Origin: a virus
Direction: 5' to 3' (one strand)
DNA: 27,441 nucleotides
Virus record (IMG/VR): IMGVR_UViG_3300010392_000921
Location: 1 to 27,441 of that record
This document shows, one piece after another, positions 4,801 to 26,927 of the stretch. Both the position numbers and the translations under genes were made by a program. The notes beneath the pieces were generated by a model. That model was not told the DNA's origin, made no database searches, and was given only the letters and a program-made list of their open reading frames with translations. Numbering within the stretch: the stretch's first letter is position 1; every line of letters starts with the position of its first letter.

Positions 4801-5209
4801 TGTTGGCGTTTATGTTGGTACGTCCGAAAACTTTAGATCTTACAATAACAATATTGGTTTTGTTTTGGGTAACTCCGGTTTGTTTTTACTTGATGGCTTT
4901 AACTTGAGAACACCAAACAATAATACCTCAATGGCTTTTAATATCGAGCCTGGTGTAACACATATGTATCGCTACGCTTTTTATGTAGATAACACAGGAT
5001 TGATGACTTATTACATTGTCGACTTAAATACTGGTCAAGTGTCAACGGGTACACAGCAATGTAATCTTGGTGCGCTTGGTAATGATCCTAAACTGTATAT
5101 TAGTTATGACCGATATGCTAACAACACAGCGGCCATAGCGATAGCTGAAACACACCTTGTAGTTAACAGCGTAGGTAACGCTGAGGACCGCTGGAACTGG
5201 AGAAATTAA
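1850..5209 (+). CDS. Large fibre-like structural protein with collagen-like stretch (1119 aa)
   Basis: A 1119-residue protein with a Gly/Ser-rich N-terminus (DGGGSSGGGS). A Gly-X-Y run follows at residues 76-90 (GPQGEKGDKGDTGE), the usual triple-helix linker of phage fibres. Long beta-rich domains come next. Two segments near residues 660-715 and 765-820 resemble each other (xVEIDSxLL.. then DIPVAS/VVPYDS then TTKRVYKGERY/TTKNIKAGDTW) and look like a domain duplication. The last ~200 residues, from about 930, form a Gly/Asn/Tyr-rich jelly-roll-like domain typical of receptor-binding tips. Position between capsid and connector genes, far from the J-like tail tip gene, suggests a capsid-anchored or accessory fibre. 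Trimeric assembly and receptor or glycan binding are inferred. Confidence 0.8.
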   Translation: MSWQVLDGGGSSGGGSLNVPSDQIFNSEAERDTYFANNPTKLIEGAQCIIVTNAPAGLYQVYTSNAWEDRSQVIRGPQGEKGDKGDTGEIDTVGLDANTLPVVNGAGDNFENSPLTVDAQGNVSMSGTFTANELKTNIASLNLGDQKKISGLGEGVEIHDISQDRHKFIVTQWLDKDEDTRAFQYKQEEYQLINIQPVFDTTLTNPEFDFTTQLGDQILYGFEVKVNTTQNNCVAQIFRQGQVNPIWEETFNNVQSDTLVLGSPVALDGNTTYMFKITGEFLGEPGGRMYYSIGARLAEKQELLDGSDRVNVDSIQTPNIETGEGLKSEQSGNSVVIELSGNKDVIELDVTLDATREITNAYVGKFLSITQSGNPVAIPMQLTLAAHNSFETGDTIKIGTSDSYVNYYFAVYYTVATGTLKVQYPSKNITMVRTDSGWDVEKDGTYTNVAIVPRVGTVDASQDNPLLTPVSSFAFLEHPGVTHFDNADGTRAVSIDLNAVDTEAFTVDGNETVDLIIGGGINYAYDAVTRESTISIDPTNISLDGFAQLETDVVFSKLSIANDTDPAYVSVLNVTNGGNSELNLVGTTNIRKVDKVTGDATDVIRINGSSGDVDFLTVPKKDGVELASLNEVAAAFPERKIATAITYQQLDSFDYYELSGTSNNATVVEIDSELLSAQTLVDIPVASNLEYRDFTVTNALGATTTKRVYKGERYIVYTNNTSANTSPIFATASSSINRGIGVPEAIEVSGGNSYNQTAAVALFTTVGNDINDVEIQIDSGFLESETIIVVPYDSQVTTKNFDVVQITGQGTTKNIKAGDTWKVRMIVDQAGDNLWFWEKIYTPNSNVVYGLAGRNDIVDEPAVKAFAYAEGMPFHLLLETPNGSRLFHEFPKNKTFRFTPTSSSREFEGSVVISQANQGVAVGDLSLGQYSDIPLYIIEPNVVINRDQRAWVNFPASLTIDVSNGFYAFGTVSGWCGNNNTEGNVGVYVGTSENFRSYNNNIGFVLGNSGLFLLDGFNLRTPNNNTSMAFNIEPGVTHMYRYAFYVDNTGLMTYYIVDLNTGQVSTGTQQCNLGALGNDPKLYISYDRYANNTAAIAIAETHLVVNSVGNAEDRWNWRN

Positions 5210-6191: not shown

Positions 6192-7388
6192 ATGAGTACT
6201 AAACAGTTTGCCCTTGCTGGCGTAAATGAAACGGTTGAGTTTGGTAAAGACGGTCACAAGGTCGACGCATCAAACTCAGGTTATTTTAAACTGACTGACA
6301 GCTCAGATACTTTAATTCGTGTTAAGGGTCTGGCTGCAAATGCATCTGACGAGTTTGTTACTAAAACTCAGTTAGACGCTGTTAACGCTCTTGCTGGTGG
6401 TTATACATCTTACAGCTATGACGCATCTGGCAACATCTCACAGCTTAGCGGTCAAGGTACAGGCGATTCTGGCGCTATCCTTTACGGTGATACTTACAAG
6501 ATTGGTACTTCTGGTACTTTCCTTGGTCAATCTGCCCAAGCGGGTGATTTGGTTTCTGCGCTTGTTGCTGGTGCTGATGTTTCTGATAATACATCTTCTA
6601 ACACTGATTGGATTTTAATTGAAATCCGTACAGCTAGCGATTTAGCTGACGGCTCATCAACTGACCATTCAAGCGGTAAAATTATTGTTAAAGATCGTGG
6701 TATTGATGGTTCTAAAATTGCACTTGAAACAATCTTGAATGAAAATATGGGTGCTAACTCTATTGATTCAGACCAGTATGTAGACCGTTCAATTGATGGC
6801 GTTCACATCGGTTTAGCTCAACTTCTAGATGAGCATCATGCAACAAACCAGATTGCCAAAAACAAGCTTGCAGCATCGGTTCAAACTACGCTAACAAATG
6901 CTGATACTCAGTACGGTACGCGTAACGGTAACTTCGAAAGTGCAATTGGAGGAAGCTTTGATGCTGATAGCGACTCATCTATTGCAGCTCAAACTAACTA
7001 CGGTACTGACACAACTATCACAGGCCAGTTATCACAGCTTGACGCACGAATGAAGCTTGATAACGATGATAATGCTTTGCGTGTTGTTTCTGCATCTCAC
7101 AGCGGTGGCGCTCAAAACATTGGCTCGTCAGTTAAATCAGGACGAACTGTTTTACGTGTTAAAGTTAAGCCTGTAACTGTTGCCAATGGTGCGAACTGTA
7201 CCATGACAATTGGTGTATCTGGTGATGCGGCTAAATACGTTGCTGCTGCTGACATTGACCTTTACGAGTCAACTGTTCAAGTGTTTGAATTTGCTGATGA
7301 GCTATCAAGCGACGAGCAGATTATTGCAACTGTAACGCAAGGTACGGCTACGCAAGGTACTTTCTATGTTACTGTAGAACACGCTTAA
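6192..7388 (+). CDS. Structural protein with duplicated N-terminal anchor-like domain (398 aa)
   Basis: Residues 1-65 (FALAGVNETVEFGKDGHKVDA then SNSGYFKL, IRVKGLAA, EFVTKTQLDAV) match the start of the protein encoded at 7425-8138 nearly position for position. The shared segment is therefore a domain and probably the part that binds the virion. After it come Ser/Asp/Gly-rich beta segments and a stretch with heptad character (DSDQYVDRSIDGVHIGLAQLLDE, about 195-220, quoted in part). A C-terminal beta domain follows from about residue 295. 'FVTK.QLD' motifs occur widely in phage tail and head fibre proteins just before the shaft. Likely virion surface protein; exact role inferred. Confidence 0.75.
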   Translation: MSTKQFALAGVNETVEFGKDGHKVDASNSGYFKLTDSSDTLIRVKGLAANASDEFVTKTQLDAVNALAGGYTSYSYDASGNISQLSGQGTGDSGAILYGDTYKIGTSGTFLGQSAQAGDLVSALVAGADVSDNTSSNTDWILIEIRTASDLADGSSTDHSSGKIIVKDRGIDGSKIALETILNENMGANSIDSDQYVDRSIDGVHIGLAQLLDEHHATNQIAKNKLAASVQTTLTNADTQYGTRNGNFESAIGGSFDADSDSSIAAQTNYGTDTTITGQLSQLDARMKLDNDDNALRVVSASHSGGAQNIGSSVKSGRTVLRVKVKPVTVANGANCTMTIGVSGDAAKYVAAADIDLYESTVQVFEFADELSSDEQIIATVTQGTATQGTFYVTVEHA

Positions 7389-7424: not shown

Positions 7425-8138
7425 ATGGCTAAGAACTTTACACTTGAGGGTGTTGCTGATTCTGTTGAGTTCGGCAAAGATGGAAACCAACTAGACGCTA
7501 GCAACTCACATGCTGAGTTTAAAAACAACGCTGGAACAAAAATACAGGTGCGCGGCGCTGATGCGACACACTCATCATCTTTTGTGACTAAATCTCAGCT
7601 TGATAACGCAACAAGTGGAGATGCTGGAACAATCTGGATTGAGTACAGCACATTACCGTCGGTATCTAACTTTACCGCCAACACTGCAAAAGAGATTGAC
7701 TTAACAACTGGTACAGCTAGTTTACTGTCTGATTACTCAACTATCCCACAAAACACTAGCTGGGATGGCAGCGACGCGCGTACATACATTGTTGATACAA
7801 CAAACGGCTTGTTAACGCCTAATAACGTTGATAAGCAGGCGCACGTTTTTAGTATCGAGTTTGAATATACCGATTGGGGCAGCGGAACTAATACAGGTGT
7901 GGGCGCTTACTTTTCTTTGATTGAATACGATGGATCTAGCGAACAAAGAGAAATCAGAAAGCAATTCCGAAAAGCTAATAATGACAATGGTGACGGCGTT
8001 ATTACTTTAGACTTTATGACAAATGTGACTGGTAACGTAAACGGCTCAGGTAAAGGATGGAAGTTGAAGGTGACATCATTAGAAAGCGATAGTAACGCAG
8101 ATATAAAAATTAAATCAATTAGATTACAGGTAGGTTAG
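7425..8138 (+). CDS. Structural protein sharing the N-terminal anchor-like domain (237 aa)
   Basis: The first ~60 residues (FTLEGVADSVEFGKDGNQLDA, SNSHAEF, IQVRGADA, SSFVTKSQLDNA) align with the N-terminus of the preceding 398-aa protein; the remainder does not. The unique part is a beta-sandwich-like domain of about 170 residues. It is rich in aromatics and Asp/Gly (FSIEFEYTDWGSG, AYFSLIEYDGSS) and ends KSIRLQVG, a pattern common in phage decoration and carbohydrate-binding-like modules. The CGAGG site (7414-7418) precedes the ATG. It is the last gene of the fibre block and is closed by a strong terminator. Function by inference: second virion-surface protein mounted by the same anchor. Confidence 0.75.
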   Translation: MAKNFTLEGVADSVEFGKDGNQLDASNSHAEFKNNAGTKIQVRGADATHSSSFVTKSQLDNATSGDAGTIWIEYSTLPSVSNFTANTAKEIDLTTGTASLLSDYSTIPQNTSWDGSDARTYIVDTTNGLLTPNNVDKQAHVFSIEFEYTDWGSGTNTGVGAYFSLIEYDGSSEQREIRKQFRKANNDNGDGVITLDFMTNVTGNVNGSGKGWKLKVTSLESDSNADIKIKSIRLQVG

Positions 8139-12904: not shown

Positions 12905-13455
12905 TGATTCACCATAGATATGGTCACGGGCAAATAAAATTCGAGGGTGAGCTTTACACGTTCATCCCGAGTTTTTACAACATGTCAAAGATTGGTGATC
13001 CAGATCACATTGTCGATATTTACAAAATATTAGTAGATAACGAATCCCCATGGTACGCAAGATTTGATGCTGCAATGGTTGTTTTAAATTCTTGTTGCGA
13101 CAAGGTTATACCAAAAGAGATGACGGGCCATATAACGGATGAGCTTGATTACTCAATAAATGACAATCCAGAAAGAGCCGTTAGCATGATTGAGGTTGCT
13201 ATTAATTTAATGTACCACGGAATTAGCGGAGACATTAAATCTGAATCAAAAGGCGATCCCATATCAGAGTTTGACCCCTACGAATACATTGAGCTTGCAA
13301 CTCAGCACTTAAGTTTTAATCAGGATGAAGCTGCAAATATGTCAATGACTCAGTTTGTAAGAAGTATGCAAGCAAAATATCCAGAAGCTAAAGAAGCAAA
13401 CAACCCAAATGTGCGAGTTGTTAACGGAGTTAAATACGAGAGGTTTGAAGTCTAA
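12904..13455 (+). CDS. Tail assembly chaperone, DUF6246-like (183 aa)
   Basis: ATG overlaps the tail tube stop (TAATG), and the gene overlaps the tape measure start in the same way. The segment GQIKFEGELYTFIPSFYNMS then KIGDPDHIVDIYKIL is characteristic of the DUF6246-type proteins that occupy the gpG/GT slot between tail tube and tape measure genes. The rest is helical, with a C-terminal tail (VRVVNGVKYERFEV). Unlike lambda G/GT there is no second overlapping ORF and no slippery heptamer at the end, so a single product is expected. It keeps the tape measure protein soluble before tube assembly. Confidence 0.75.
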   Translation: MIHHRYGHGQIKFEGELYTFIPSFYNMSKIGDPDHIVDIYKILVDNESPWYARFDAAMVVLNSCCDKVIPKEMTGHITDELDYSINDNPERAVSMIEVAINLMYHGISGDIKSESKGDPISEFDPYEYIELATQHLSFNQDEAANMSMTQFVRSMQAKYPEAKEANNPNVRVVNGVKYERFEV

Positions 13456-15224
13456 TGACTGTTGATGCTGGTAATATTGAATACTCAGTTGGCATAAACA
13501 CGACTGAAATGGACAAGGGCGCTAAAAAGGTTGAGTCAGGCGTAAATAAAATAAATACTCAAATGACCAAAGTTGCAGAGTCAACAAAAAAAGCTAATAG
13601 CGCACTGGGTCGAATGGGTAGAAACGCTGGTCAAGCTGGTATTCAAGTCCAGCAGTTTGTTGGTCAAATTCAAGGCGGTCAAGATGCGATGCTAGCTTTT
13701 GGGGCGCAAGCTGCTGACCTTGGTATTGTTTTAGGCTTACCTTTAGTCGGTGCCGTTGCTGGCCTTGGTGCTGCTGTTGTAGGAACGTTAATTCCTAGCT
13801 TGAGCGCTGCAAATGAAGAGGTTAAAGAAATACTACCTTCTATTGATGATTTAATAGAAAAAATGGAAACCTTAACTTTAGCACAGAAAGACTATGTTAA
13901 GTCTGAAATTGCAAAAACAATATCTCAAGAAAATAAAGAACTTCAAGAAAAGAATAATAGAATCGAATCGCTAATAAAAAGCAATCGATATTTGTTACGC
14001 GATGAAGAAAAGAATGCCGAACAAATTGACAAGCAAACTGACCAGTTAAGAAAGCTTAGAGCTGAAAGAGACCAGCTTGTTGAAAGCATTGACAAGCAAA
14101 GACAGGTGATTAGCGATTTAAACAAAGCAGAATCAAACAACGCTTCAAACTCTGTAACAACAGAAAATTCAATGGTTGAAAGAATCAGAGTTCTAGCTGA
14201 AATAAATAAAGCTCTAGACACTCAAGTTGCCACGCTTGGTATGTCAGAACGGGAGATGGCATTATACTCTGTAAGCTTGCTTGCTGTTGGTGACACTGAA
14301 AAATCAATAGTAGACGCTTTAAAGCAAAAAATAAATGCTCATTATGATGAAATTGACGCCATAAAAGCAAAAGAAGAAGAACAAAGAAAGGCGGAAAAAT
14401 ATCAACGCGAAGAGGAACGCAGATTAAGCTCATTATCCAGTAGAGGCGCAACAATTGGCCTAACTGATGAAGAAACTTTTAGATTGCAGCTAGAAAATCA
14501 AGACGCGATACTAAAAGAAATGCTAGAAGCTAGATTGATAACAGAGCAAGAATATATTGAGCGCAGAAATAATCTTTACAATCAAGGTAACAGTGAGTTA
14601 AGCGCAAGTTTTGAGTCGGTGCAAAATCAAGCTATAGGATCTTTAATGGCTGTAGTTACCGGAGCTCAAGATGGTAGAGAGGCAATAAGAAACCTAGCTT
14701 TAAGCATTACAACTCAATTAATCGGCGCACTAATAAAGCAAGGTATAACGTCAGTTTTAACCACAACAAAAACAGCAGCAGCACAGGTTAGCGCAAACGC
14801 TGCCATTACAGCTTCTGCCGTTCCCGCTGCGGCTGCAACATCTCTTGCAAGCTTTGGTTCTAACGCTCCGCCAGCAATAGCGGGCATAGCTGCGGTAAGC
14901 GCTGCGGCTGCTGGTCTTGCTGCAATAGGTGGCAGGGAAATGGGTGGCGCGGTTTCTGCTGGCTCAATGTATCGAGTCGGTGAACGCGGTCCTGAGATAT
15001 TTAGCGCCGGCGGTCAAAACTATATGATACCAGGTGAATCCGGGCAAGTTGTTAATAACAAAAATGCGTTTGGCGGTGGTCAACAGCAGCAGCCTGTTAT
15101 TAACCTAACATTTAACGCCGCTGGTTCAATAGATAAAGATTTTGAAAGCTTCGTAATAAATAATCAAGATCTAATTTACGCCTCAGTTTCTGCTGTTAAA
15201 TCTCAAAACGGGGAGTCTTTTTAA
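13455..15224 (+). CDS. Tape measure protein (589 aa)
   Basis: The longest helical protein of the tail block. Layout: N-terminal amphipathic region with the NKINTQMTKVAEST repeats, and a hydrophobic, Gly/Ala-rich membrane-like segment at about 86-116 (LGIVLGLPLVGAVAGLGAAV). A long charged coiled coil spans about 120-345. A second Ala-rich hydrophobic region lies at about 440-495. The C-terminal GERGPEIFSAGG box is typical of lambda-H-like tape measure proteins. It sets tail length: at about 0.15 nm per residue (known rule) 589 aa gives about 88 nm. It also helps DNA pass the inner membrane. Start overlaps the chaperone stop; the stop overlaps the next start. Confidence 0.9.
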   Translation: MTVDAGNIEYSVGINTTEMDKGAKKVESGVNKINTQMTKVAESTKKANSALGRMGRNAGQAGIQVQQFVGQIQGGQDAMLAFGAQAADLGIVLGLPLVGAVAGLGAAVVGTLIPSLSAANEEVKEILPSIDDLIEKMETLTLAQKDYVKSEIAKTISQENKELQEKNNRIESLIKSNRYLLRDEEKNAEQIDKQTDQLRKLRAERDQLVESIDKQRQVISDLNKAESNNASNSVTTENSMVERIRVLAEINKALDTQVATLGMSEREMALYSVSLLAVGDTEKSIVDALKQKINAHYDEIDAIKAKEEEQRKAEKYQREEERRLSSLSSRGATIGLTDEETFRLQLENQDAILKEMLEARLITEQEYIERRNNLYNQGNSELSASFESVQNQAIGSLMAVVTGAQDGREAIRNLALSITTQLIGALIKQGITSVLTTTKTAAAQVSANAAITASAVPAAAATSLASFGSNAPPAIAGIAAVSAAAAGLAAIGGREMGGAVSAGSMYRVGERGPEIFSAGGQNYMIPGESGQVVNNKNAFGGGQQQQPVINLTFNAAGSIDKDFESFVINNQDLIYASVSAVKSQNGESF

Positions 15225-15862
15225 TGGAATTTCCAACTTACTTTAGAAATACAAAAACACCTTATCCGCAAAGCAATACACCAACTTTGATTAGCGAAAC
15301 AAGAAGCTTAAAAACTTTAGCTAGAAAAATACCATCTCAACGATGGGAGTTTAGATTTGCAGGCCACACTTTAAATTACGATTGCGCAACTGGAAGAAAT
15401 GAAACGCTAGCTTTTGCTGCTGAGTTCACATCACTAGCGCAAGGCGGATTTGGTATATTTGACTACAGACCAAATGACATATTTTTAATGGCTAGCGGTT
15501 TAGATATTACAGTTACAACCGAAGTAACAAAAGGTGATGATGTGATAGAGATTGGTAGTCCTGCTGCTGGTGCTGATCCAACTGATAGCATTGTACCTGG
15601 AAAACTAATGAGGTTTTCAACTGCAGACAAGGTTTACATGATAACAGCGGTTGCAAATTTAGGTATAGTTAACGGTTTTAGACGTTATAGAGTTAATTTA
15701 AATACAGGCTCATTTCAAGATCAAGCTTTTGGAACTCGCATTATTGCAGACAGAACCATGAGAATAAAATTAAGATTGGATGGTGATATAATAGAGGGGC
15801 AAACTCCTAATATTAATTTTAATAAAACTGTTTACAGTTTTAAAATGATAGAGGTTATATAG
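15224..15862 (+). CDS. Distal tail / minor tail protein, probable (212 aa)
   Basis: Directly follows the tape measure gene, the usual slot for the distal tail (Dit- or lambda M-like) protein. The sequence has a beta-rich N-terminus (RSLKTLARKIPSQRWEFRFA), an LAFAAEFTSLAQGGFGIFDY segment around residues 65-85, and an inserted central domain with DDVIEIGSPAAGADP. C-terminal strands end YSFKMIEVI. The pattern 'R.eF.f.g......e...f.af..s..G.ggtF' is shared with distal tail hub proteins. Assignment is by context plus this pattern. Confidence 0.65.
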   Translation: MEFPTYFRNTKTPYPQSNTPTLISETRSLKTLARKIPSQRWEFRFAGHTLNYDCATGRNETLAFAAEFTSLAQGGFGIFDYRPNDIFLMASGLDITVTTEVTKGDDVIEIGSPAAGADPTDSIVPGKLMRFSTADKVYMITAVANLGIVNGFRRYRVNLNTGSFQDQAFGTRIIADRTMRIKLRLDGDIIEGQTPNINFNKTVYSFKMIEVI

Positions 15863-16416
15863 TGACAATACCTGCAGATGTCGCGAACAATCTAAATAAG
15901 CCGTTTGAATTATGCTATTTAATTAAAATAGAATTCAGCGGCTTAACGCTAGCTATAACTGATGCACCATTTGAAATAGATCACGATGGACTAACTTACA
16001 TACCAAGCGACCTACTTGTGTCTGTTGGCGATATTAAAAGCAGCTCAGAAACTAAGGTTAACACTACTAATTTAGCATTTAGCAGTGTCGATCAAACAAT
16101 TGTCGCGCTAATGCTTGCAAACAACCAGATCGGTAGAGATGTTTACATCTATCAAGTTTATTTTTATGAAGACAATTTGAGGCAATCTGGTACTTACGTA
16201 GAGGAAGTGTCAATAGGTGAGATTAGTGGATTTACAAATGCATCAGAAAGAGACTCAAGTTTGATTAGTTTAAGTATTTCAAGTTTGTATGCGGATTGGG
16301 AGCGCAAATCCGGGCGCGTAACAACAAATTCAAGTCAGCAGTTATATTACCCTAATGACTTAGGTATGGAGTGGGCAAACGCCGTTCAAAGTGATTTAAA
16401 ATGGGGTGCTAAATAA
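15862..16416 (+). CDS. Tail hub-associated protein, DUF2163/lambda L-like (184 aa)
   Basis: GTG start overlaps the upstream stop (TAGTG). Contains ELCYLIKIEFSGLTLAITDA then GLTYIPSDLLVSVGDIKSSS near the N-terminus. A C-terminal motif, DWERKSGRVTTNSSQQLYYP with NDLGMEWANAV after it, matches the 'R..GR.t..sq...yPgD.gfe.a' ending known from DUF2163 and lambda L-type tip proteins. In lambda, L binds an iron-sulfur cluster in the tail tip; I see no cysteine set here, so that feature is probably absent. It lies between the distal tail protein and the J-like gene, as expected. Confidence 0.72.
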   Translation: MTIPADVANNLNKPFELCYLIKIEFSGLTLAITDAPFEIDHDGLTYIPSDLLVSVGDIKSSSETKVNTTNLAFSSVDQTIVALMLANNQIGRDVYIYQVYFYEDNLRQSGTYVEEVSIGEISGFTNASERDSSLISLSISSLYADWERKSGRVTTNSSQQLYYPNDLGMEWANAVQSDLKWGAK

Positions 16417-18710
16417 TGTCTTTATTTAAGAAGTTAAGAAGATTAAGTAACAAGCTTGGCCTTGGTATACCAGATAAAATAGATGAGCTTTTCTCGCCAA
16501 AAATGCCAGCAAAAAAAGGGCTTAGAGTACAAAGACAGGGCTCTTCACTTCCTATACCTGTTGTTTATGGCACTCAATTTGTCGGCGGTATTGTTGTTCA
16601 TAAATACGTCACTGATGGATCAACAAAAAACAGGTTTTTAAATGTTATAGTAGTTTTTTGCGAAGGTGAAATTGACGCCTTTGAGGAAATATTTTTTGAT
16701 GGCGTTAGCTGGGAAGATGAGCGCTTTAAAGATAACAGAGACGGCACCAGATGGTTCATAGCATCTCTTCTTGAGGGCGCACCTTCTCAAATATCCACAC
16801 TACCCATTGATAACATTCCGAACTGGACAGATAAGCACAACCTTAACGGTTTAGCTTGGGGTTATTTTAGGTTTGAGCAAGATAAAGACCAAACAATATG
16901 GAGTGGTGAGCCAAAAATAACCGCCAGAGTTAGAGGTAAAAAGATATTTGACCCTAGAGCAAATACAACCGCTTATTCTGATAACCCAGCCCTATGCCTT
17001 CGTGATTATTTAACTAATCCGATTTATGGTAAAAATATACCAACAAGCAGAATTGATGATGCCGCATTTATTAATGCTGCAAATAACTGCGATCAAGTTA
17101 TAGACTCAGTGGAGCAAACTGTAACTCGCTCTTTTTACGATGAGGAAAGTGGTACTTATATAACATTACCATCTGAGACCACCTTTGTAGATATTACAAA
17201 GCATACTTGTAACTTAACCATCGATACAAGCAACAGTATTTTTGATAATGTAAAAATACTATTAAACACGTTCAGAGGTCTGCTTCCACCAAAATTTATT
17301 TTAAGCCCAATAATAGAAGAAGCTGGAAGCCCTTCGTTTACGTTTGATGATGACATAATTGAAAGTGACGTCATTATTAAATCACCTAATCTCAACCAGC
17401 GATATAATAGAGTTACGGTTAGGTTTCCAAATGAACTTTCACCCACATTTGATGATGACGAAGCATTCTGGCCTGCTACAGATTCAGCTATATACCAAAC
17501 TTTTTTAAGTGAAGATAACGGTAAGCTTTTAGAGAAAACGTTTGATTTTAACGGTATAAATAACATGGCTGAAGCTCAGCAGATGGCTGAGTTTTTATGC
17601 AAAAAATCAAGGTTTCAGTTATCCACAACAATCACAGCTAACCCAATATCGAACCAAGTTGAGGTTGGTGATATTGTCGGATTAACAAACCTTGACAACG
17701 GTTATACAAACAAGCCTTTCAGAGTTAAATCTAAAACACAACTGTCAGACAATTTATTTAGGTTTGAGCTTTTAGAGCATGAAAATAATATTTATCCGTG
17801 GGAGGATAAGGCCTACAACGAAATAGACGGGGGCACTTGGCTTGGTGACCCTGGCGATGTTGGTGTTGTTGAGGAGTTAACCTTTGTAAAAGATTTAAGT
17901 CTCTCATCGACAGGAACTTTAACTTGGAAAGCTGACAATGACTCTTTTATTGATGGTTACATTGTAGAGACTAGGCTGGTTTTAGATGAAAATGGAGATA
18001 AACCAACAAACGAAGCTGGTCAAGAGGTTGATTTTATAATCATAGAAAGAGTTGATACTGTTTCGGAAAGTTACACTATACCATTGCTGACAAAATCAAC
18101 GTATCAATTTTTTGTTTACATAAGGTCGACCGTTGGCAACACTGGTTTACCAAGCTCAATAGAAGTTTTAGTTGCTAACCCTCCAGAGCCAGACGGTATA
18201 ACATTTGAAGCAGATAACTTTGAAATTAGAGCTAGTGCTTTTTTTGATCCAGACCCAAACGTGGGTCAAGGGGATCAAGGTGTTGGGACAAGCTTTCAGT
18301 TCGCTATAAGTGACACCGCAAACCCTAGTGAGCCAACTGGATCAATTACATTTGTAAACCTCTCACCAGAAACCACCTATACTATTTTTGCGCGTTCAGT
18401 TAACGCTTACGGTGTTTCGCCTTGGATTAGTCAAGAGGTTCAGACTTTAAAAGATGGCTCAAGAATAGTTGAAGTTATCGGTGATGATATTTCAGATGTT
18501 ATTTTGCCTGATGTAATTGACGCGGTGCAAGATGATTTGCAGCAAATTGTAACTGACTCGCTTGTTGACTACCCGACTAAATTAGAGGTTACAGAAGAGA
18601 TAAATAATTCCATAGGGTTAATCAACAACGCCTTCAATGAGGACCCGAGATTAACTCCTATAGAGGTTATCAACAATATACTTGAAATTACGACACTGAA
18701 GGTAATGTAA
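16416..18710 (+). CDS. Tail tip (host specificity, J-like) protein, N-terminal part before frameshift (764 aa)
   Basis: Begins MSLFKKLRRLSNKLGLGIPD and contains GSSLPIPVVYGTQFVGGIVV (about residues 42-62). This is the 'r.gs..piPvvYG...vgG.iv' opening of lambda-J-like tip attachment proteins (phage-tail_3 family). The hub domain runs to about 485. Two fibronectin-III-like domains follow at about 487-593 and 594-680 (with LSPETTYTIFARSVNAYGVS). A helical region then leads into the frameshift. The frame ends at the TAA at 18708-18710, but the reading continues in the -1 frame without interruption to 20482, so this is the 5' part of a split gene. Expected intact size about 1355 aa. The J protein forms the tail tip and determines receptor binding. 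Confidence 0.85.
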   Translation: MSLFKKLRRLSNKLGLGIPDKIDELFSPKMPAKKGLRVQRQGSSLPIPVVYGTQFVGGIVVHKYVTDGSTKNRFLNVIVVFCEGEIDAFEEIFFDGVSWEDERFKDNRDGTRWFIASLLEGAPSQISTLPIDNIPNWTDKHNLNGLAWGYFRFEQDKDQTIWSGEPKITARVRGKKIFDPRANTTAYSDNPALCLRDYLTNPIYGKNIPTSRIDDAAFINAANNCDQVIDSVEQTVTRSFYDEESGTYITLPSETTFVDITKHTCNLTIDTSNSIFDNVKILLNTFRGLLPPKFILSPIIEEAGSPSFTFDDDIIESDVIIKSPNLNQRYNRVTVRFPNELSPTFDDDEAFWPATDSAIYQTFLSEDNGKLLEKTFDFNGINNMAEAQQMAEFLCKKSRFQLSTTITANPISNQVEVGDIVGLTNLDNGYTNKPFRVKSKTQLSDNLFRFELLEHENNIYPWEDKAYNEIDGGTWLGDPGDVGVVEELTFVKDLSLSSTGTLTWKADNDSFIDGYIVETRLVLDENGDKPTNEAGQEVDFIIIERVDTVSESYTIPLLTKSTYQFFVYIRSTVGNTGLPSSIEVLVANPPEPDGITFEADNFEIRASAFFDPDPNVGQGDQGVGTSFQFAISDTANPSEPTGSITFVNLSPETTYTIFARSVNAYGVSPWISQEVQTLKDGSRIVEVIGDDISDVILPDVIDAVQDDLQQIVTDSLVDYPTKLEVTEEINNSIGLINNAFNEDPRLTPIEVINNILEITTLKVM

Positions 18711-20482
18711 AAACCGAATCACTAGAAAGAAAGACGCAAGTAAACAGTCTGCAAACAGAAATAAACGGAAATACTGCAAGTATTGTTGAAATAAACACGG
18801 TTGTTTCTGATCTTGATAGCTCAACTGCTGCACAGTTTACAGCGCTTCAAACAAGAGTTGACGATAACGAGTCTAGTATAGTAGAGATAAATCTTTCTGT
18901 AAGCGATTTAGAGTCATCTGTTGCACAGCAATTTACACAAATACAAGCTTCAGTTGATGGTAACTCAGCAAGCATAACAAGCGTTTCAACTGCGCTTGCA
19001 ACAGAAACGACCACTAGGGCAACGCAAGTTTCACAACTGCAAGCAACTGATAACAACATAATTAGCCAAATAAATCAGGTTGAATCAGATGTAGAGGGGA
19101 ATTTTAGCTCTATAAGTGCGATTCAAGCGACAATAGATAATCCCGTTACAGGTCTAAGCGCCACGTATGGGTTAGCACAATCAGCAGAATCAAAAGCAGA
19201 TGGTAATACAACATCCATAACAGCGCTAACAAACAAGGTTGAAGACCCAGATAGCGGACTTTCAGCTACTTTTAGCCTTGCATCTCAAGCAAAAATAACG
19301 GCAGATGGTAACACTACATCCATAACAGCGCTAACAAACAAAGTTGACGACCCAGACAACGGACTTTCAGCTACTTTTAGCCTTGCATCTCAAGCAAAAA
19401 TAACGGCAGATGGTAACGCATCATCCATAGCGGGCCTTGACACTAGAGTAACAAGCGCTGAGGGAACAGCAAATGCGGCTTTAACTCTTTCATCGAGCAT
19501 TGACTCAAGCTTGAATGAATATAGAGCAAGCGCACAAATAAAAGTAGATGCTCAGGGTAACGCTGGTTTTATACAGCTTGACGCAACTCCATCAGTTACG
19601 CAAATAAGATTTGAGAGCGACCAGTTTATATTGCAGCAAAACGGAGTTCCGAAGGTTTTCTTTGATAACACAGAAAGCCAATACAAGTTTATAGGGATAG
19701 GGGACTTTACGGTTGTTGATTCACCCATAATTGACTCTCAAGATATTACCGCGACAAACGCAATATTAACTAAAAATATATCTGTTAGTGGTAGATGTAT
19801 CACTGATTTTATTGTTGACGCCGGAAAGCAGATAACAGCGCAAAAAATAGAATGCACAGAGACTGATAGCACTAGATTTGTTGGTAGAGATTTAAACTTA
19901 TCAGGAACAACAACAAACGCCAGAGCTTTAATTGTCAATACGGGTGCTGGTGATGGTGTTGACGCTGCATCAACTGGTGGTGGTTTTGCTTTTTACGCCT
20001 CGCAAGGTGGTTACGGCCCGTTTACAGGCTCTCACGAAGGGTTAGTTAAAAAGGGGTTTAAAGCTGAGGTTGGTGATTTAATTTGTGACGGTGATTTAAT
20101 TCACATTGCCGATGTAAGCAACGCGATACTTGAATCAAAATTGTCAACAGAGAAAAATGACCCTTCAATATCTGGCGCTTTTGTATCATTGAGGCCAGTA
20201 AATAATAGTAAACTTCCTGCAGGACTTAGGGGGTTTAGCGGTGACTTATCTAATTATGATATAATTACATTTAATTCAATTGGCGAAGGTGTAATTAATG
20301 TCTGCGGTCAAAATGGAGACATAAAAGCCGGTGATTATATATGCTCTAGCTCATTACCGGGTAAGGGTATGAAGCAAGATGAAAATACAATGAAAAATTA
20401 CACAATAGCAAAAGCTAGACACTCAGTATCTTTTAAAGGTAATGAAACAAAACAGTTAGCTGTAAAATATTTAGGTGGTTAA
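18686..20482 (+). pseudogene. J-like tail tip protein, C-terminal part displaced by a frameshift (-1 frame relative to 16416)
   Basis: This frame opens at 18686, after a TGA at 18683-18685, and runs without a stop to 20482. It lacks any ATG, GTG or TTG until 19511, so it cannot be a separate gene; it continues the J-like gene. It reads NYDTEGNVKTESLERKTQVN and then coiled-coil repeats like DUF1983 regions of J proteins. A beta-rich tip (NAGFIQLDATPSVTQIRFES) and a GDYICSSSLPGKGMKQDE box near the end follow, as in C-terminal phage fibre chaperone/peptidase-like domains. Adding one A to the AAA run at 18685-18687 would fuse the two parts. No classical slippery heptamer is present in the overlap, so a real mutation or an assembly/sequencing error is more likely than programmed frameshifting. 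Confidence 0.8.
19091..19450 (+). repeat. 105-bp (35-aa) tandem repeats inside the J-like coding region
   Basis: Three units at 19091-19195, 19196-19300 and 19301-19405 plus a partial fourth to about 19450. Units 2 and 3 are nearly identical in DNA (the ADGNTTSITALTNKV part and GLSATFSLASQAKIT); unit 1 is diverged in the same period. They encode a coiled-coil shaft, so copy number would set fibre length; near-identity suggests recent duplication or homogenisation. Confidence 0.9.
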
Positions 20483-21477: not shown

Positions 21478-21675
21478 ATGATTGAAAAAAAAGAAATACC
21501 TTACGAGTTTTTAGTGAGAATTAATGATGGCGAAATATCTGGAGCGCATGTAAGAAGACTTGAAGTTGTTAAGGATTCTGAAACCGGTGAAGTTTACAGT
21601 GCAAAAGAGCTGCCAGCAGAAGCTATAAATTTAACACAAGAAGAGTTAAACATGATTAAATCGAGGTTAGTATGA
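21478..21675 (+). CDS. Small unknown protein after the tail fibre gene (65 aa)
   Basis: I use the ATG at 21478, three bases after the fibre stop; longer versions beginning at 21439 run back into the fibre gene. The product, MIEKKEIPYEFLVRINDGEI onward, is acidic. It has GAHVRRLEVVKDSETGEVYS in the middle and a helix EAINLTQEELNMIKSRLV at the end. Its size and place suit a tail fibre assembly/chaperone-type helper, but no family is recognised. The stop overlaps the ATG of the lipoprotein gene at 21672. Confidence 0.68.
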   Translation: MIEKKEIPYEFLVRINDGEISGAHVRRLEVVKDSETGEVYSAKELPAEAINLTQEELNMIKSRLV

Positions 21676-21977
21676 GAATTTTAGTTTTGTTTTTTGTGGT
21701 GTTACTAGCTGGTTGTTAGTCAATGGGCGTAACAGAATACGAGCTTGAGCCAATTGTAAAATCAGATGGATCCGTTGTTTGTTGTAAGGCTACAGTTTAC
21801 AACTCCAAAGATTACGATCAGCTTAAATTTAAATTCAAGGTTGATAAAGATGGAAATATTGAAGCTGTACTTGATGAAAAAGGTGTAAATTCTAGCGACC
21901 CCGCATCTATTGGCGCTGAGAATAACGGGAAAATGCTTGATGCTATTAACAAGTTGATACCTTTAACTGGTGGCTAA
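21672..21977 (+). pseudogene. Lipoprotein with in-frame amber codon directly after the lipobox (101 codons)
   Basis: ATG at 21672 opens MRILVLFFVVLLAGC, a textbook lipoprotein signal peptide with the lipobox L-A-G-C, overlapping the preceding gene. The next codon (21717-21719) is TAG, then SMGVTEYELEPIVKSDGS and so on to 21977 in the same frame. Replacing TAG by CAG would give LLAGCQSMG, the usual start of a mature lipoprotein, so a C-to-T nonsense change, suppression/readthrough, or a base-call error is likely. The ATG at 21723 could restart translation but would yield a cytoplasmic protein of 84 aa. The mature part is charged, with a VVCCKATVYNSKDYDQLKFK core; function unknown, candidate outer-membrane exclusion or lysis accessory protein. 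Confidence 0.8.
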
Positions 21978-22413: not shown

Positions 22414-22569
22414 CCCTCCATAATAAGGTTCAAGTTTTGAGACTGCAAAAAGAAACCATCCAAGAAACGCAAATACTTTTAGCATGAAAATGCTGTTATT
22501 TTTACGTCTTAAAATAAATCTAAGGCGATTACATTCAGCTTCACATTGCTTGTGAGTTCTCATGCTCAT
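22408..22569 (-). CDS. Small single-TM protein after the endolysin, holin/spanin candidate (53 aa)
   Basis: ATG at 22569 overlaps the endolysin stop (ATGA). The product begins with a basic cytoplasmic-type segment (MSMRTHKQCEAECNRLRFIL, then RRKNN). One hydrophobic helix, IFMLKVFAFLGWFLFAVS, and a short C-terminus, KLEPYYGGF, follow. A positive N-terminal side and a single membrane helix directly downstream of an endolysin is the layout of a small holin-like or i-spanin-like lysis protein. It is too short for a typical spanin periplasmic part, so holin is favoured. No family is recognised. Confidence 0.65.
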   Translation of the reverse strand: MSMRTHKQCEAECNRLRFILRRKNNSIFMLKVFAFLGWFLFAVSKLEPYYGGF

Positions 22570-22955
22570 GATTCAACCTCAAAGTGTGGCATATCTAAAA
22601 AGTGCCTCCAGTGACCACCCCAATGTAGCACCACGCCAAGCTCAGAGGCAGCGGCAAGCATCGCTGTTGCAACGTGAGTTAAATGCTCAGGCTTCCAGCT
22701 TGCTCTACCATCAACAAACGCATAAACGTCAATAGCATTACCTGACTGGTGTTTGCTTTTCTTTTTATAACCATCAAGCTTTGATTTGCCATCATGGAAT
22801 AATTTATTTTGTTCCTCTGCTGTCCTAATTCCACCACTTGACGGTATACCAAAGTCAACTTTACTAATTTCAATGGCCCTCATACAAACAGCCTGCAAGT
22901 CAGGGTTAACACCGGCAATTACATTTAAGCTTTTTTGACTGAATTTAAATGACAT
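22566..22955 (-). CDS. Endolysin, M15-family L-alanyl-D-glutamate / D-Ala endopeptidase (129 aa)
   Basis: ATG at 22955 follows GGAGAGT. Zinc-site residues of the M15/VanY-like fold are visible: HQSGNAIDV gives His69 and Asp76, and DMPHF gives His124 (with Asp121). The SSGGIRTAEEQN segment (39-50) and GGHWRHF (113-119) complete the active-site surroundings. At 129 aa it is a compact single-domain enzyme like T5-type endolysins. It has no signal peptide, so it needs a holin to reach the murein; a candidate follows. It cleaves the peptide stems of peptidoglycan at lysis. Confidence 0.92.
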   Translation of the reverse strand: MSFKFSQKSLNVIAGVNPDLQAVCMRAIEISKVDFGIPSSGGIRTAEEQNKLFHDGKSKLDGYKKKSKHQSGNAIDVYAFVDGRASWKPEHLTHVATAMLAAASELGVVLHWGGHWRHFLDMPHFEVES

Positions 22956-23101
22956 TCTTTTACTCTCCTAGCACAAAAACCTTCGTAAAACTCGTTGGCT
23001 TCACATTCTGCATCGTGCGCGTTTTTAGCTTCAACCTCAACGCTGCGACTTTCGCCGCTAGCGTCATTATATAACTCAACTTCAAATTTCTTAGTAATCA
23101 T
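22925..23101 (-). CDS. Small charged protein in the lysis operon (58 aa)
   Basis: The ATG at 23101 overlaps the end of the preceding gene; longer versions starting up to 23233 would run through that gene and are rejected. The product, MITKKFEVELYNDASGESRS onward, has an acidic helix (EAKNAHDAECEANEFYEGFC) and a basic end with VKECHLNSVKKA. It resembles small DUF-type proteins that carry the 'FEV.l......r.y.VeA.n..eA...a...' pattern, but I cannot name the family. Its 3' end overlaps the endolysin start by 31 bases. Confidence 0.62.
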   Translation of the reverse strand: MITKKFEVELYNDASGESRSVEVEAKNAHDAECEANEFYEGFCARRVKECHLNSVKKA

Positions 23102-23384
23102 CATCGTCAACCTGTGATAGACAAGATTCATTAACTGAATCGCTATGATACTTGGCTTGCTTTCGATAATTGGCTTCATCTCTAAAAAACGGAGAGTTAA
23201 GCACTTTTCTATTATAGCGTTTAATTGCATCATACGCCCTTTGCCACATCGAATAAGCTTTTTGATGCTTTATGCAGTACTTACAACCCTCACCCGTACA
23301 TTTATGCTCAACGATGCTGTCTTCGATTTGTTGCGCTTCGTCTGAATATTTGTCAGCTTTTACTAAATCGGTATGACGTTCCAT
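23091..23384 (-). CDS. Unknown protein with CxxxxCxxC motif, first gene of lysis operon (97 aa)
   Basis: First gene after the minus promoter at 23426-23454. The product begins MERHTDLVKADKYSDEAQQI. A cysteine-rich piece (HKCTGEGCKYCIKHQKAYSM, about residues 27-46) has a spacing that could bind zinc. The rest is basic and helical (WQRAYDAIKRYNRKVLNS). The end is acidic, DDDDY, and overlaps the next gene. No family is recognised; a small zinc-binding accessory protein is the most that can be said. Confidence 0.68.
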   Translation of the reverse strand: MERHTDLVKADKYSDEAQQIEDSIVEHKCTGEGCKYCIKHQKAYSMWQRAYDAIKRYNRKVLNSPFFRDEANYRKQAKYHSDSVNESCLSQVDDDDY

Positions 23385-23425
23385 TATTTTCCCTATTTAA
23401 AGTTGCAAAATTAAATTGTTACTAT

Positions 23426-23454
23426 AATATATAATTAAATTTATTGTGATGCAA
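23426..23454 (-). promoter_or_regulatory. Promoter of the lysis-type operon
   Basis: TTGCAT (minus, 23454-23449) and TATATT (23431-23426) with a 17-base spacer, 42 bases before the ATG at 23384. The same AT-rich interval must also serve the divergent plus-strand gene at 23466, for which TATAAT occurs at 23423-23428 and 23430-23435 but no convincing -35 is seen. Confidence 0.62.
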
Positions 23455-23465
23455 ATGGAGATAAC

Positions 23466-23795
23466 ATGAAAAGATTTACAGATAAAAATGAATGCTTAGT
23501 GTGGCTGACTGAGAATTACAAAAAGGCAAGTCAAGCGTTTGCTGTTATGGGCATTGAATGGCTTTATTATGGCAAAGATGTGGTTTTAGCTAGTGACATT
23601 AAAAACGCATTCAAACTATTCAAAGGCAAAGAAATGCCATCAACGCAAGTATTAGAAAGCGAATGCCATACGATTGAGCAGGCACTTAAAAATCTGATTA
23701 ATGCTTGTGAAAATAATACAGGTAACGAGCCAAGTTTGAGTTGTTATTATAGAGCGGTTGATGATGCTAAGCGTGTTTTGGGTTTGATTAATTAG
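23466..23795 (+). CDS. Unknown protein (109 aa)
   Basis: ATG at 23466 with ATGGAG upstream. Soluble, helical product starting MKRFTDKNECLVWLTENYKK. A segment LASDIKNAFKLFKGKEMPST and a C-terminal helix with cysteines (ESECHTIEQALKNLINACEN) are followed by SCYYRAVDDAKRVLGLIN. No family is recognised. Pairs with the next gene as a two-gene plus-strand unit between divergent and convergent minus-strand genes; probably an accessory or early function. Confidence 0.68.
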   Translation: MKRFTDKNECLVWLTENYKKASQAFAVMGIEWLYYGKDVVLASDIKNAFKLFKGKEMPSTQVLESECHTIEQALKNLINACENNTGNEPSLSCYYRAVDDAKRVLGLIN

Positions 23796-23806
23796 AAGGG
23801 TTTTTT

Positions 23807-24076
23807 ATGAATACAGAAAGTACACTAAAAGAGCGCGGTAGTGAATACGGATCGTTTGAAGATGGATCTATAACGATGCAAGCAATGAAATCTGCAGTTA
23901 GAAATAACCCAAGATGGAAGTATTTAAAGGCAAACCAAAAAGAGTCAATAGAAATGATACTCCACAAGGTTGGTAGGATAGTTAATGGTAATTCAAATCA
24001 CATTGATAGTTGGCATGATATATCTGGTTATGCAAAGCTTGTTGAGAACAGTTTGACAGGTAAGGGTGAGAAATAA
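23807..24076 (+). CDS. DUF6378-like phage protein (89 aa)
   Basis: Starts MNTESTLKERGSEYGSFEDG and has ANQKESIEMILHKVGRIVNG followed by HIDSWHDISGYAKLVE. The 'L..R...YG.f', 'q.e...mI..K..Ri.nGn' and 'DsW.DiaGYa.L' elements are those of DUF6378-type proteins found in many phages, often near nucleotide-metabolism genes; their role is unknown. AAGGG lies upstream. The hairpin at 24075-24097 overlaps its stop. Confidence 0.72.
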   Translation: MNTESTLKERGSEYGSFEDGSITMQAMKSAVRNNPRWKYLKANQKESIEMILHKVGRIVNGNSNHIDSWHDISGYAKLVENSLTGKGEK

Positions 24077-24097
24077 AAGCGCTAACTAAGCGCCTTT
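24075..24097 (-). terminator. Rho-independent terminator of the portal/head operon
   Basis: Read on the minus strand: AAAGGCGC, loop TTAGTTA, GCGCTTTT followed by ATTT. The loop contains the stop of the Mu F-like gene, while the other arm overlaps the stop of the convergent gene ending at 24076. One G-T pair in the stem. Confidence 0.72.
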
Positions 24098-25075
24098 CAT
24101 TCCTACCCGCCACACTTGTTTTTGTTTTAACATTTTATCAATCAAATCTTGCTGTGGCGTTTCACCTGTTTTTTTATTTACAAGCACTGGCCCTTGATTG
24201 CAGTAGCAGTTTATCGCGTTAGCACCTTCACTATAAAAATCATCAACCTCTTGATTATCGTAAATGCCACCATGCTTTGCAGCGTGAGTTTTACGCGTTG
24301 TCGATGTTAATGCAGACCACCACAATAATTGCATATGCCAATCACTATCAGCGTAAATATTAGCGTTAATGTCTCTCTGTTCGCTTCTTGTTGCTGTGCG
24401 ATACGATTGCATTATTTCAGTTCTAGCGATACGCTGAGCGCGACTAAAGCCCACCTGAACGCGCTTTTGGATATTCTTACTAATTTCTGTGATACCTAAA
24501 CCATCAGCCATACCGCGAGTTAATGTATTGGCAAGGTCGACTTTCATTGAGTTTGTTAGGCCGTCCATTTCTTCAAATACTCGAGCATAAACCAAACCTA
24601 AACGCTGTTGCTGTTGTGGTGATATGTAATCTTCATCGATCGCCATTATTTGTTGAGTGATTTCTTCACCAACAATTGCAGGGTCGGCCATCGATTTAGC
24701 TGAGTAAACCTGGTCGTTTATACCGTCAATAAATGATTGCTCAAGGTATGACTGATAAAACCAGTTGAGCGGCTTGGTTCCATCAAATGACTCGAGCAAG
24801 TTAGCGCGCAAGACTCTTAAAATATACTCATTGATTGACTGGTATCTAAGTTCATCAATTTGATATTCATAGTATGCTTTATTCGTAGTTATGCGAGTTT
24901 GGTATTTTCTTTGCTCTTTTACCAGCTCAACCATGCGCTTATTTATTTTATTAAAGCGTTTCTTTAAATCAGAAAATAACCGCTTAACCGTTGGCATTTG
25001 CCCCGCTGGATCAGATGCTTTTTTAGGTATAAGCGGGTTGTCTTTAGATGGTGCTTTGATCGCTAATATTTGCAT
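24086..25075 (-). CDS. Mu F-like head morphogenesis (minor capsid) protein (329 aa)
   Basis: The C-terminal part contains SRAQRIARTEIMQSYRTATR (about 212-232), WWSALTSTTRKTHAAKHGGI (about 255-275) and INCYCNQGPVLV. These are the hallmark motifs of the phage Mu F / SPP1 gp7 minor head protein family (PF04233), in the usual order. The N-terminal half is helical and charged (KRLFSDLKKRFNKINKRMVE). These proteins bind portal and capsid and enter the prohead. Length of 329 aa is normal; no toxin or enzymatic C-terminal extension is present. The start overlaps the portal gene by 32 bases, so they are co-translated. Confidence 0.88.
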   Translation of the reverse strand: MQILAIKAPSKDNPLIPKKASDPAGQMPTVKRLFSDLKKRFNKINKRMVELVKEQRKYQTRITTNKAYYEYQIDELRYQSINEYILRVLRANLLESFDGTKPLNWFYQSYLEQSFIDGINDQVYSAKSMADPAIVGEEITQQIMAIDEDYISPQQQQRLGLVYARVFEEMDGLTNSMKVDLANTLTRGMADGLGITEISKNIQKRVQVGFSRAQRIARTEIMQSYRTATRSEQRDINANIYADSDWHMQLLWWSALTSTTRKTHAAKHGGIYDNQEVDDFYSEGANAINCYCNQGPVLVNKKTGETPQQDLIDKMLKQKQVWRVGMKGA

Positions 25076-26480
25076 CGCCTAAAGTCTCGTCTGATTTATC
25101 ATCTTCTTGCTCGTATTCAGAGTTAGGTTTATCAGTTTCAAAACCGGCAACCTCTCGAATTTCCTCAACAGTCCACGGAGCTTCTTGGCGTGATTTAAAT
25201 GCGCGCTCATTTTGCATTGTCATTTTATCAGCCATTTCTAGCTTTTCGCTTAAAGTAGGTTCAGCAATATCAGGCCATATAACAGTTATTTCTTTGCTTG
25301 GCGCCGGTAAAATGCCTAAATCAACAAGCCAGTAAAGGAAAGCGCAAATTCTAGGGCCATATTCGTTTTCTTGCTCACCCTTTAGGCGTTTGCTAAATGC
25401 TGAGCTATTCTCACTTGATGAGCGCTCACCTGTCATAAAGCCTATTAACTCGGTTACAGGAACGCGACGAGAAGCGCAAGCCTCTTGCAGTGCAACAGTG
25501 CTAGCACCTGTTGGGTCTTCGATTGTGCCTTGCAACATGTTGACGTCCATACCCGCAACTTTTAACGCCTGGTTAAAGTTGTCGTTAAAGTCATCAATGT
25601 TTTTATCTAACTTAGCCGCCGTGGTTGGATCATTAAACGCTTTACCAGCAACCGCGTTATCATTAGCGTTTAACACATACTTTTGCATTGCGTTCTTGCG
25701 ATAACCTTCAGCAGATGCGCCTCGTATTTTTCGCTGGTCAAATAAAGCATCAAAAGGTGATTCAAGTGCTGGCTTTCCGTAAATAGTCGAGCCAGTCGCG
25801 TTAGTTAGAATAAATACTCGCTTGCGATTAATTTCTATTTGCTCAGCGTTTGTCGTTTGACGGTCAGAAAGTACAGAGTTGTTAATTTTATAATAAACGG
25901 GCTTATTGTAATCTGGATCAAAATAATCCATAACAACATCAGTTGACGCCTCACACTCAGGCTCATAATAAACATTAATAGCAGCAACTGAGCCAACCCC
26001 GCCTTGCGCTTTGCTTGGCTCATCCGATAGCTTAGGATCGTTTCCTGACTCTTTAAAGACTGGCACAATAGCGGAATAACTGCCGACGTCCTTCATTTTT
26101 TCCGCTTCTTTAAACAAACGGAGTAAGTTGAATTTTTTATTAAGTTTTTTTAGTTCAACTTCAAATGCTGTATTGTCTTTTTTAGTGCTGTCGTATTCAT
26201 CACCATCAACAATAAGCGGCATCTGATTGAAACAGCGTTCTGGCACAATATCAACCAAAGCATTAAAAAAACCGCCGCGACTATAGGCGTTGTAATAATT
26301 CATAAAGCTTAGTTGGCATGGATAGCCATACTGCGCCGCATCATCGCGAAGTGTGTCACCGATATTTGAAGGTGCGCTAAAGTGTAAAGCGTAGTTAGCT
26401 CGACTTTGCGCCATGCGTCTATCATTATTAGCGGCTAACTGTCGCTTTTTCTGTTTGCTATTGTGCTTTCTATTTGACAT
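25044..26480 (-). CDS. Portal protein, DUF1073 type (478 aa)
   Basis: N-terminal basic tail (RKHNSKQKKRQLAANNDRRM) followed by GFFNALVDIVPERCFNQMPL. The central part carries NVYYEPECEAS, VYYKINN and TNATGSTIYGKPALESPFDA. The C-terminal third has AGMDVNMLQGTIED, VPVTELIGFMTGERSSSENS and LVDLGILPAPSKEITVIWPD. These are the DUF1073 portal elements (phage_portal_3), with a terminal acidic tail. The same family name is attached to Acb1-like proteins in some databases because of fused domains; no Acb1 enzyme domain is seen here. The portal forms the dodecameric DNA channel. SD is weak (GGG); the portal start sits just after a hairpin and T-run. Confidence 0.88.
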   Translation of the reverse strand: MSNRKHNSKQKKRQLAANNDRRMAQSRANYALHFSAPSNIGDTLRDDAAQYGYPCQLSFMNYYNAYSRGGFFNALVDIVPERCFNQMPLIVDGDEYDSTKKDNTAFEVELKKLNKKFNLLRLFKEAEKMKDVGSYSAIVPVFKESGNDPKLSDEPSKAQGGVGSVAAINVYYEPECEASTDVVMDYFDPDYNKPVYYKINNSVLSDRQTTNAEQIEINRKRVFILTNATGSTIYGKPALESPFDALFDQRKIRGASAEGYRKNAMQKYVLNANDNAVAGKAFNDPTTAAKLDKNIDDFNDNFNQALKVAGMDVNMLQGTIEDPTGASTVALQEACASRRVPVTELIGFMTGERSSSENSSAFSKRLKGEQENEYGPRICAFLYWLVDLGILPAPSKEITVIWPDIAEPTLSEKLEMADKMTMQNERAFKSRQEAPWTVEEIREVAGFETDKPNSEYEQEDDKSDETLGDANISDQSTI

Positions 26481-26506
26481 AAAAAAGACCCATTTATTAA
26501 TGAGCC
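26481..26506 (-). terminator. Hairpin with T-tract immediately before the portal ATG
   Basis: On the minus strand GGCTCATT and AATGGGTC pair over 8 bp (two G-T pairs) around an AATA loop, followed by CTTTTTT up to the ATG at 26480. It has the form of a terminator for the upstream dUTPase transcript, and would be disrupted in transcripts starting at the portal promoter. Confidence 0.5.
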
Positions 26507-26507
26507 T

Positions 26508-26536
26508 AGTATAGCATTTTAATTTGTTTCGGTTAA
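26508..26536 (-). promoter_or_regulatory. Extended -10 promoter for the portal gene
   Basis: TGCTATACT (minus, 26516-26508) with TTAACC at -35 (26536-26531), spacer 17. Transcripts would begin near 26501, inside the hairpin at 26481-26506, leaving a leader of about 20 bases before the portal ATG. It matches the extended -10 elements at 1521 and 12328. Confidence 0.6.
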
Positions 26537-26540
26537 ATGG

Positions 26541-26927
26541 CTAGTTATCAGTTGAACCAAAGCCGCCTTTTCGTTCATTATTTTCAACTTCAAAAAAGCC
26601 GTCCATATAACGCATAGGGACAATTTGCGCTATACGCTCACCTTTATCAATCTTAACCGGTTTGTTGCTGATATTTGTAAGCATCACCTTAACTTCATCT
26701 TTGTAATCAGCATCAATCACGCCTACCGAATTAGTTAAAATTAAACCACGTTTAAATGACAAGCTGGAGCGTATAAATAACATATAAACCATATTTGGTA
26801 ACTCATGGTAATTCTCAAGCTTAAAACCTGTGCCAACTAAAACAGTTTCACCCTTATCAATCAAAACAGATTCACTTGAAGATAAATCAGCTCCAGCGCT
26901 AAGCTTTGTTTTATGTGTTGGTATCAT
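26541..26927 (-). CDS. dut: dUTPase (deoxyuridine 5'-triphosphate nucleotidohydrolase) (128 aa)
   Basis: All five motifs of trimeric dUTPases are visible: SAGADL (motif 1), RSSLSFKRGL (motif 2), GVIDADYKDEV (motif 3, with the catalytic Asp), GERIAQIVPM (motif 4) and RKGGFGSTD (motif 5, glycine-rich C-terminal arm). Motif 2 reads RSS where RSG is commoner. It hydrolyses dUTP to dUMP and pyrophosphate, keeping uracil out of phage DNA and feeding dTMP synthesis. Length of 128 aa is slightly short, with a short N-terminus (MIPTHKTKL). GGAGGGG sits directly before its ATG, inside the end of the 31-aa gene. Location upstream of portal is unusual but keeps it in one operon. Confidence 0.93.
   Translation of the reverse strand: MIPTHKTKLSAGADLSSSESVLIDKGETVLVGTGFKLENYHELPNMVYMLFIRSSLSFKRGLILTNSVGVIDADYKDEVKVMLTNISNKPVKIDKGERIAQIVPMRYMDGFFEVENNERKGGFGSTDN

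Follow-up and report, generated by a model that had tools for sequence, protein, structure and literature searches.

Why does the J-like tail tip gene of this virus record lie in two frames, and does the break reflect gene control, a defective phage or a fault in the record? The window, that is the whole stretch of DNA analysed, is a 27,441-base virus record. The features concerned are listed below, with differences given against a sister contig, IMGVR_UViG_3300010430_000105, and a second related record, IMGVR_UViG_3300040959_000451.

16416..18710, + strand: 5' part of the J-like gene, a 764-aa frame; codons past 18686 are out of frame
18685..18686, + strand: one base fewer in the window record than in the sister contig, from the alignment of the two
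18686..20482, + strand: 3' part of the J-like gene, 598 codons, with coiled-coil-looking repeats followed by the C-terminal tip domain
21672..21977, + strand: second lesion, a 101-aa lipoprotein-like frame interrupted at codon 16 by a stop (mismatch 21718); the sister and the second record are without the stop

Two frames of one J-like gene

The ORF list and a frame scan bore out the layout described in the initial annotation: the 764-aa frame ended at 18710, and a second frame was open from 18686 to 20482 with no ATG, GTG or TTG before 19511. A stop at 18683-18685 directly precedes the opening of this 598-codon downstream frame, in which the first TTG is found at 19511, 275 codons in, and the first ATG at 20369, GTG being absent; the only ORF of this frame in the program's list is the 323-aa one running from the TTG at 19511 to 20482. 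A run of 598 stop-free codons had a log10 P of -18.5 at the base composition of the region, and in 2000 first-order Markov simulations open runs reached at most 188 codons in any of three frames. The two J frames overlap by 25 bases, and joining them needs a -1 shift.

The 5' half matched PHROG 31, central tail fiber J (5e-47), and PHROG 37728 (4.8e-93), and the 3' half matched one tail protein family, PHROG 2589 (4.1e-8). In Pfam, fn3 was above its cut-off and Ig_J_second, at 25.2 bits, slightly below its 27-bit cut-off; the solved Tip attachment protein J, 9e7m, gave a weak match (E 0.0079). Judged by eye, the repeats of the 3' half resemble a coiled coil. Upstream of J are genes for the tape measure (13455-15224), the distal tail protein (15224-15862) and the tail assembly protein (15862-16416), and a match to a major tail protein family was also found among the upstream genes. 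Major tail protein, tape measure, distal tail and tail assembly is the customary gene order ahead of J. A lambda-type J is recognised by its family match, by its position past the tape measure and tail assembly genes and by a single continuous frame; the first two were found here, and the third was lacking in the window record and present in all four relatives read. The gene is best read as one of the lambda central tail fibre or tail-tip attachment protein type, from a tailed phage. The real gene would encode one protein of about 1355 aa, with its N-terminal part seated in the tail tip and its C-terminal coil and tip domain predicted to extend towards the receptor.

Several other features of the window were recorded. 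In the 3' repeat region of J, a 129-base stretch occurs twice, 105 bases apart and 93% identical (19196-19429), with the same copies in the sister. The minus strand, opposite the tail genes, carries genes for endolysin, head morphogenesis, portal and dUTPase at 22566-26927, and a 1119-aa protein encoded at 1850-5209 matched no PHROG at E 0.001.

J in the sister contig and in other relatives

The sister contig, 45,207 bp long, covers the window end to end over all 27,441 bases and has the same gene order around J. Four differences separate the two records, namely three mismatches (7433, 21718 and 26195) and a one-base gap in the window at 18685. The sister differs in that its J is unbroken, a single ORF of 1355 codons in which the two frames of the window are fused, and in that the downstream 101-aa lipoprotein-like frame is intact too. 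The first 757 residues of the window's 5' part match the sister J, and there were no differences at all in the 3' half. The length of about 1355 aa predicted earlier for the fused protein is therefore exactly that of the sister J. The earlier proposal that a one-base indel at an AAA splits the gene stood as to the site, which the sister alignment places there, and failed as to a change in the length of an A run, since the base was lost outside a homopolymer.

The J of IMGVR_UViG_3300040959_000451 is 63% identical overall, with both halves matching, and unlike that of the window it is unbroken, at 1345 aa. Before the junction 487 of 741 aligned residues were identical (65.7%), and after it 342 of 580 (59.0%). 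Across the junction itself the identity was 23 of 24 residues, a level reached by 18 of 1332 stretches of equal length. The roughly 800 bases without a start codon, which had been taken as coding, are indeed coding: they are conserved J sequence in both the sister and this second record.

Phage records were matched by one J half in 299 cases and by the other in 13 (5' and 3' in that order), and two of these records were read. In Alteromonas phage P24, both halves match within a single CDS (AZU97344.1, 29% identical to the sister J), an unbroken protein of 1560 aa annotated only as "hypothetical protein". The tail protein, or central tail fiber J, of Colwellia phage 9A is likewise unbroken, at 1710 aa, and is matched only by the C-terminal part of the 3' half, where the tip domain is 45% identical over 174 query residues. 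These last 174 residues of J (window 19958-20482) are closer to Colwellia phage 9A than the rest of J is to any phage record listed, and given the 45% identity the tip domain may have been exchanged. Comparison with related J genes had been proposed as a check, and it returned a single-frame J in all four relatives read: the sister, IMGVR_UViG_3300040959_000451, Alteromonas phage P24 and Colwellia phage 9A. Elsewhere, a distant viral match, a 115,739-bp contig, covered residues 47-504 in part. The window had no DNA similarity match among 50,697 phage records, and a scan of genome contigs gave 129 candidate stretches, none of them a relative.

Since J is a single frame in the sister and the other relatives, and conservation runs straight across the junction, the two frames belong to one gene and not to two. 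We infer that this is an ordinary J-like gene broken by the loss of one base in this record only, and that the loss is probably an error of the assembled consensus, a reading of the sequences to which we give a probability of about 0.68. Of the explanations for the missing base, a consensus error is the most likely one; what the records show directly is the pair of frames, the base missing against the sister and the intact J of the relatives.

A second interrupted frame

The mismatch at 21718 converts a sense codon of the sister into a stop in the window. The frame it hits, 101 aa long and situated shortly past the tail fibre gene, has a lipoprotein-like beginning with a lipobox-like cysteine immediately preceding the stop. 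The frame is intact in the sister and in IMGVR_UViG_3300040959_000451, and its remainder is strongly conserved; the window's own version restarts only at 21723. Of the other two mismatches, the one at 7433 is synonymous and the one at 26195 a missense change in the portal gene; the portal codon adjoins an alignment gap with the second record, so the change there was not assigned to either side. Two of the four differences are thus gene-breaking (the 18685 gap and the 21718 nonsense change), both on the window's side, which is what errors or unselected changes would produce.

Calculated over 26 coding stretches that total 21,909 bases of the window, unselected substitutions were expected to be 22.1% synonymous, 73.6% missense and 4.4% nonsense, and the chance of at least one nonsense change among three random substitutions was only 0.126, which, like the small number of differences, counts against the preferred reading. 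The four changes look unselected, their numbers being too small for a firm test. With another gene broken at 21718, a switch becomes less likely than a sequence that is faulty or not under selection.

The gene that carries the mismatch at 7433 was also noted for another reason. Its protein (7425-8138) had a second match in the sister, 50% over about 63 residues, at the place of its upstream neighbour (6192-7388), and judging from this similarity the two genes seem to be partial duplicates. The gene at 7425 had no match in the searched stretches of IMGVR_UViG_3300040959_000451, so that the mismatch at 7433 was not assigned to a side either.

Alternative explanations

The strongest alternative, which we regard as possible and clearly less probable than a consensus error, is a real deletion in a defective phage, whose J would be truncated at 764 aa, without the coil and tip domain, and which would exist as a minority or be helped by intact copies. 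Loss of a single base outside a homopolymer is rare in short-read consensus sequences, and the defective variant therefore stays alive as an option: the loss here is a clean one of just this kind, and a second gene is broken too, as in a genome free of selection. However, the remainder of the record is near-identical to the intact sister, so that decay, if any, can only have begun very recently. A tyrosine integrase, which would fit a decaying prophage, was found in 0 of 3 records in a search for that family, the same search being positive in 14 of 14 control genomes. A scan of ten further sister genes, out of 17 ORFs listed in the stretch, gave only packaging, replication, recombination, methyltransferase or unknown types. 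On these two grounds a decaying prophage was rejected.

A variant of the same idea is very improbable in our estimate: genomes whose J is truncated and whose lipoprotein gene is broken would persist in a natural population next to intact genomes, which complement them in mixed infections. If this were true, the tail tip would show a polymorphism of cheating or sharing.

Gene control at the junction fares worse still. In phase variation, a base would be reversibly lost and gained, turning J on and off. Host range in lambda-like phages is set by J, and two states are seen across two records. Against this, the junction has no repeat tract, the longest run being 2 bases in the intact sister and 3 in the window, and a scan of viral contigs for the junction pattern found the sister only, the window's own record possibly lying outside the scan. 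Reverse transcriptase (PF00078, RVT_1) was found in 0 of 3 records, which may be fragments, in a search with positive controls in 3 of 14 genomes. A diversity-generating retroelement was rejected on that result and on the identity of window and sister throughout the 3' half of J. Since the intact copy lacks a repeat tract there and no mechanism of switching was found, phase variation is very unlikely. It thereby drops out of the three readings offered by the initial annotation, of which assembly error and a defective variant both still stand.

A programmed -1 frameshift giving a short and a long J is just as hard to sustain. The 25-base overlap and the direction of the required shift would suit it, but no slippery heptamer of the form X-XXY-YYZ starts within 18640-18710 in any phase, which extends the absence noted earlier for 18686-18710. 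The RNA 3' of the site showed no sign of a stimulatory structure in a model that leaves out pseudoknots (z 0.11; 105 of 200 shuffles folded equally well or better). Moreover, the relatives read encode J without a shift, and the single-frame J of the near-identical sister already contradicts recoding. Without a heptamer, an unusual RNA fold, a repeat tract or a reverse transcriptase, recoding and phase variation are both unsupported.

Two separate genes are the least probable reading of all: the TTG at 19511 does open a 323-aa frame, but the 275 preceding codons are conserved and code for part of the same protein, which already contradicts a start there, no Shine-Dalgarno-like stretch was seen by eye just upstream of this TTG, and J is a single gene in all relatives read.

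Consequences for reading the record

From one missing base, a gene caller run on the window record would produce a short tail-tip protein, a gene-less stretch and a 323-aa orphan. Since two of the four differences between these near-identical public records break genes, odd features of the window record need checking against the sister or the reads before they are counted as biology. The split J itself most likely reflects an error in the sequence or else a dead variant, and not a novel form of gene control.
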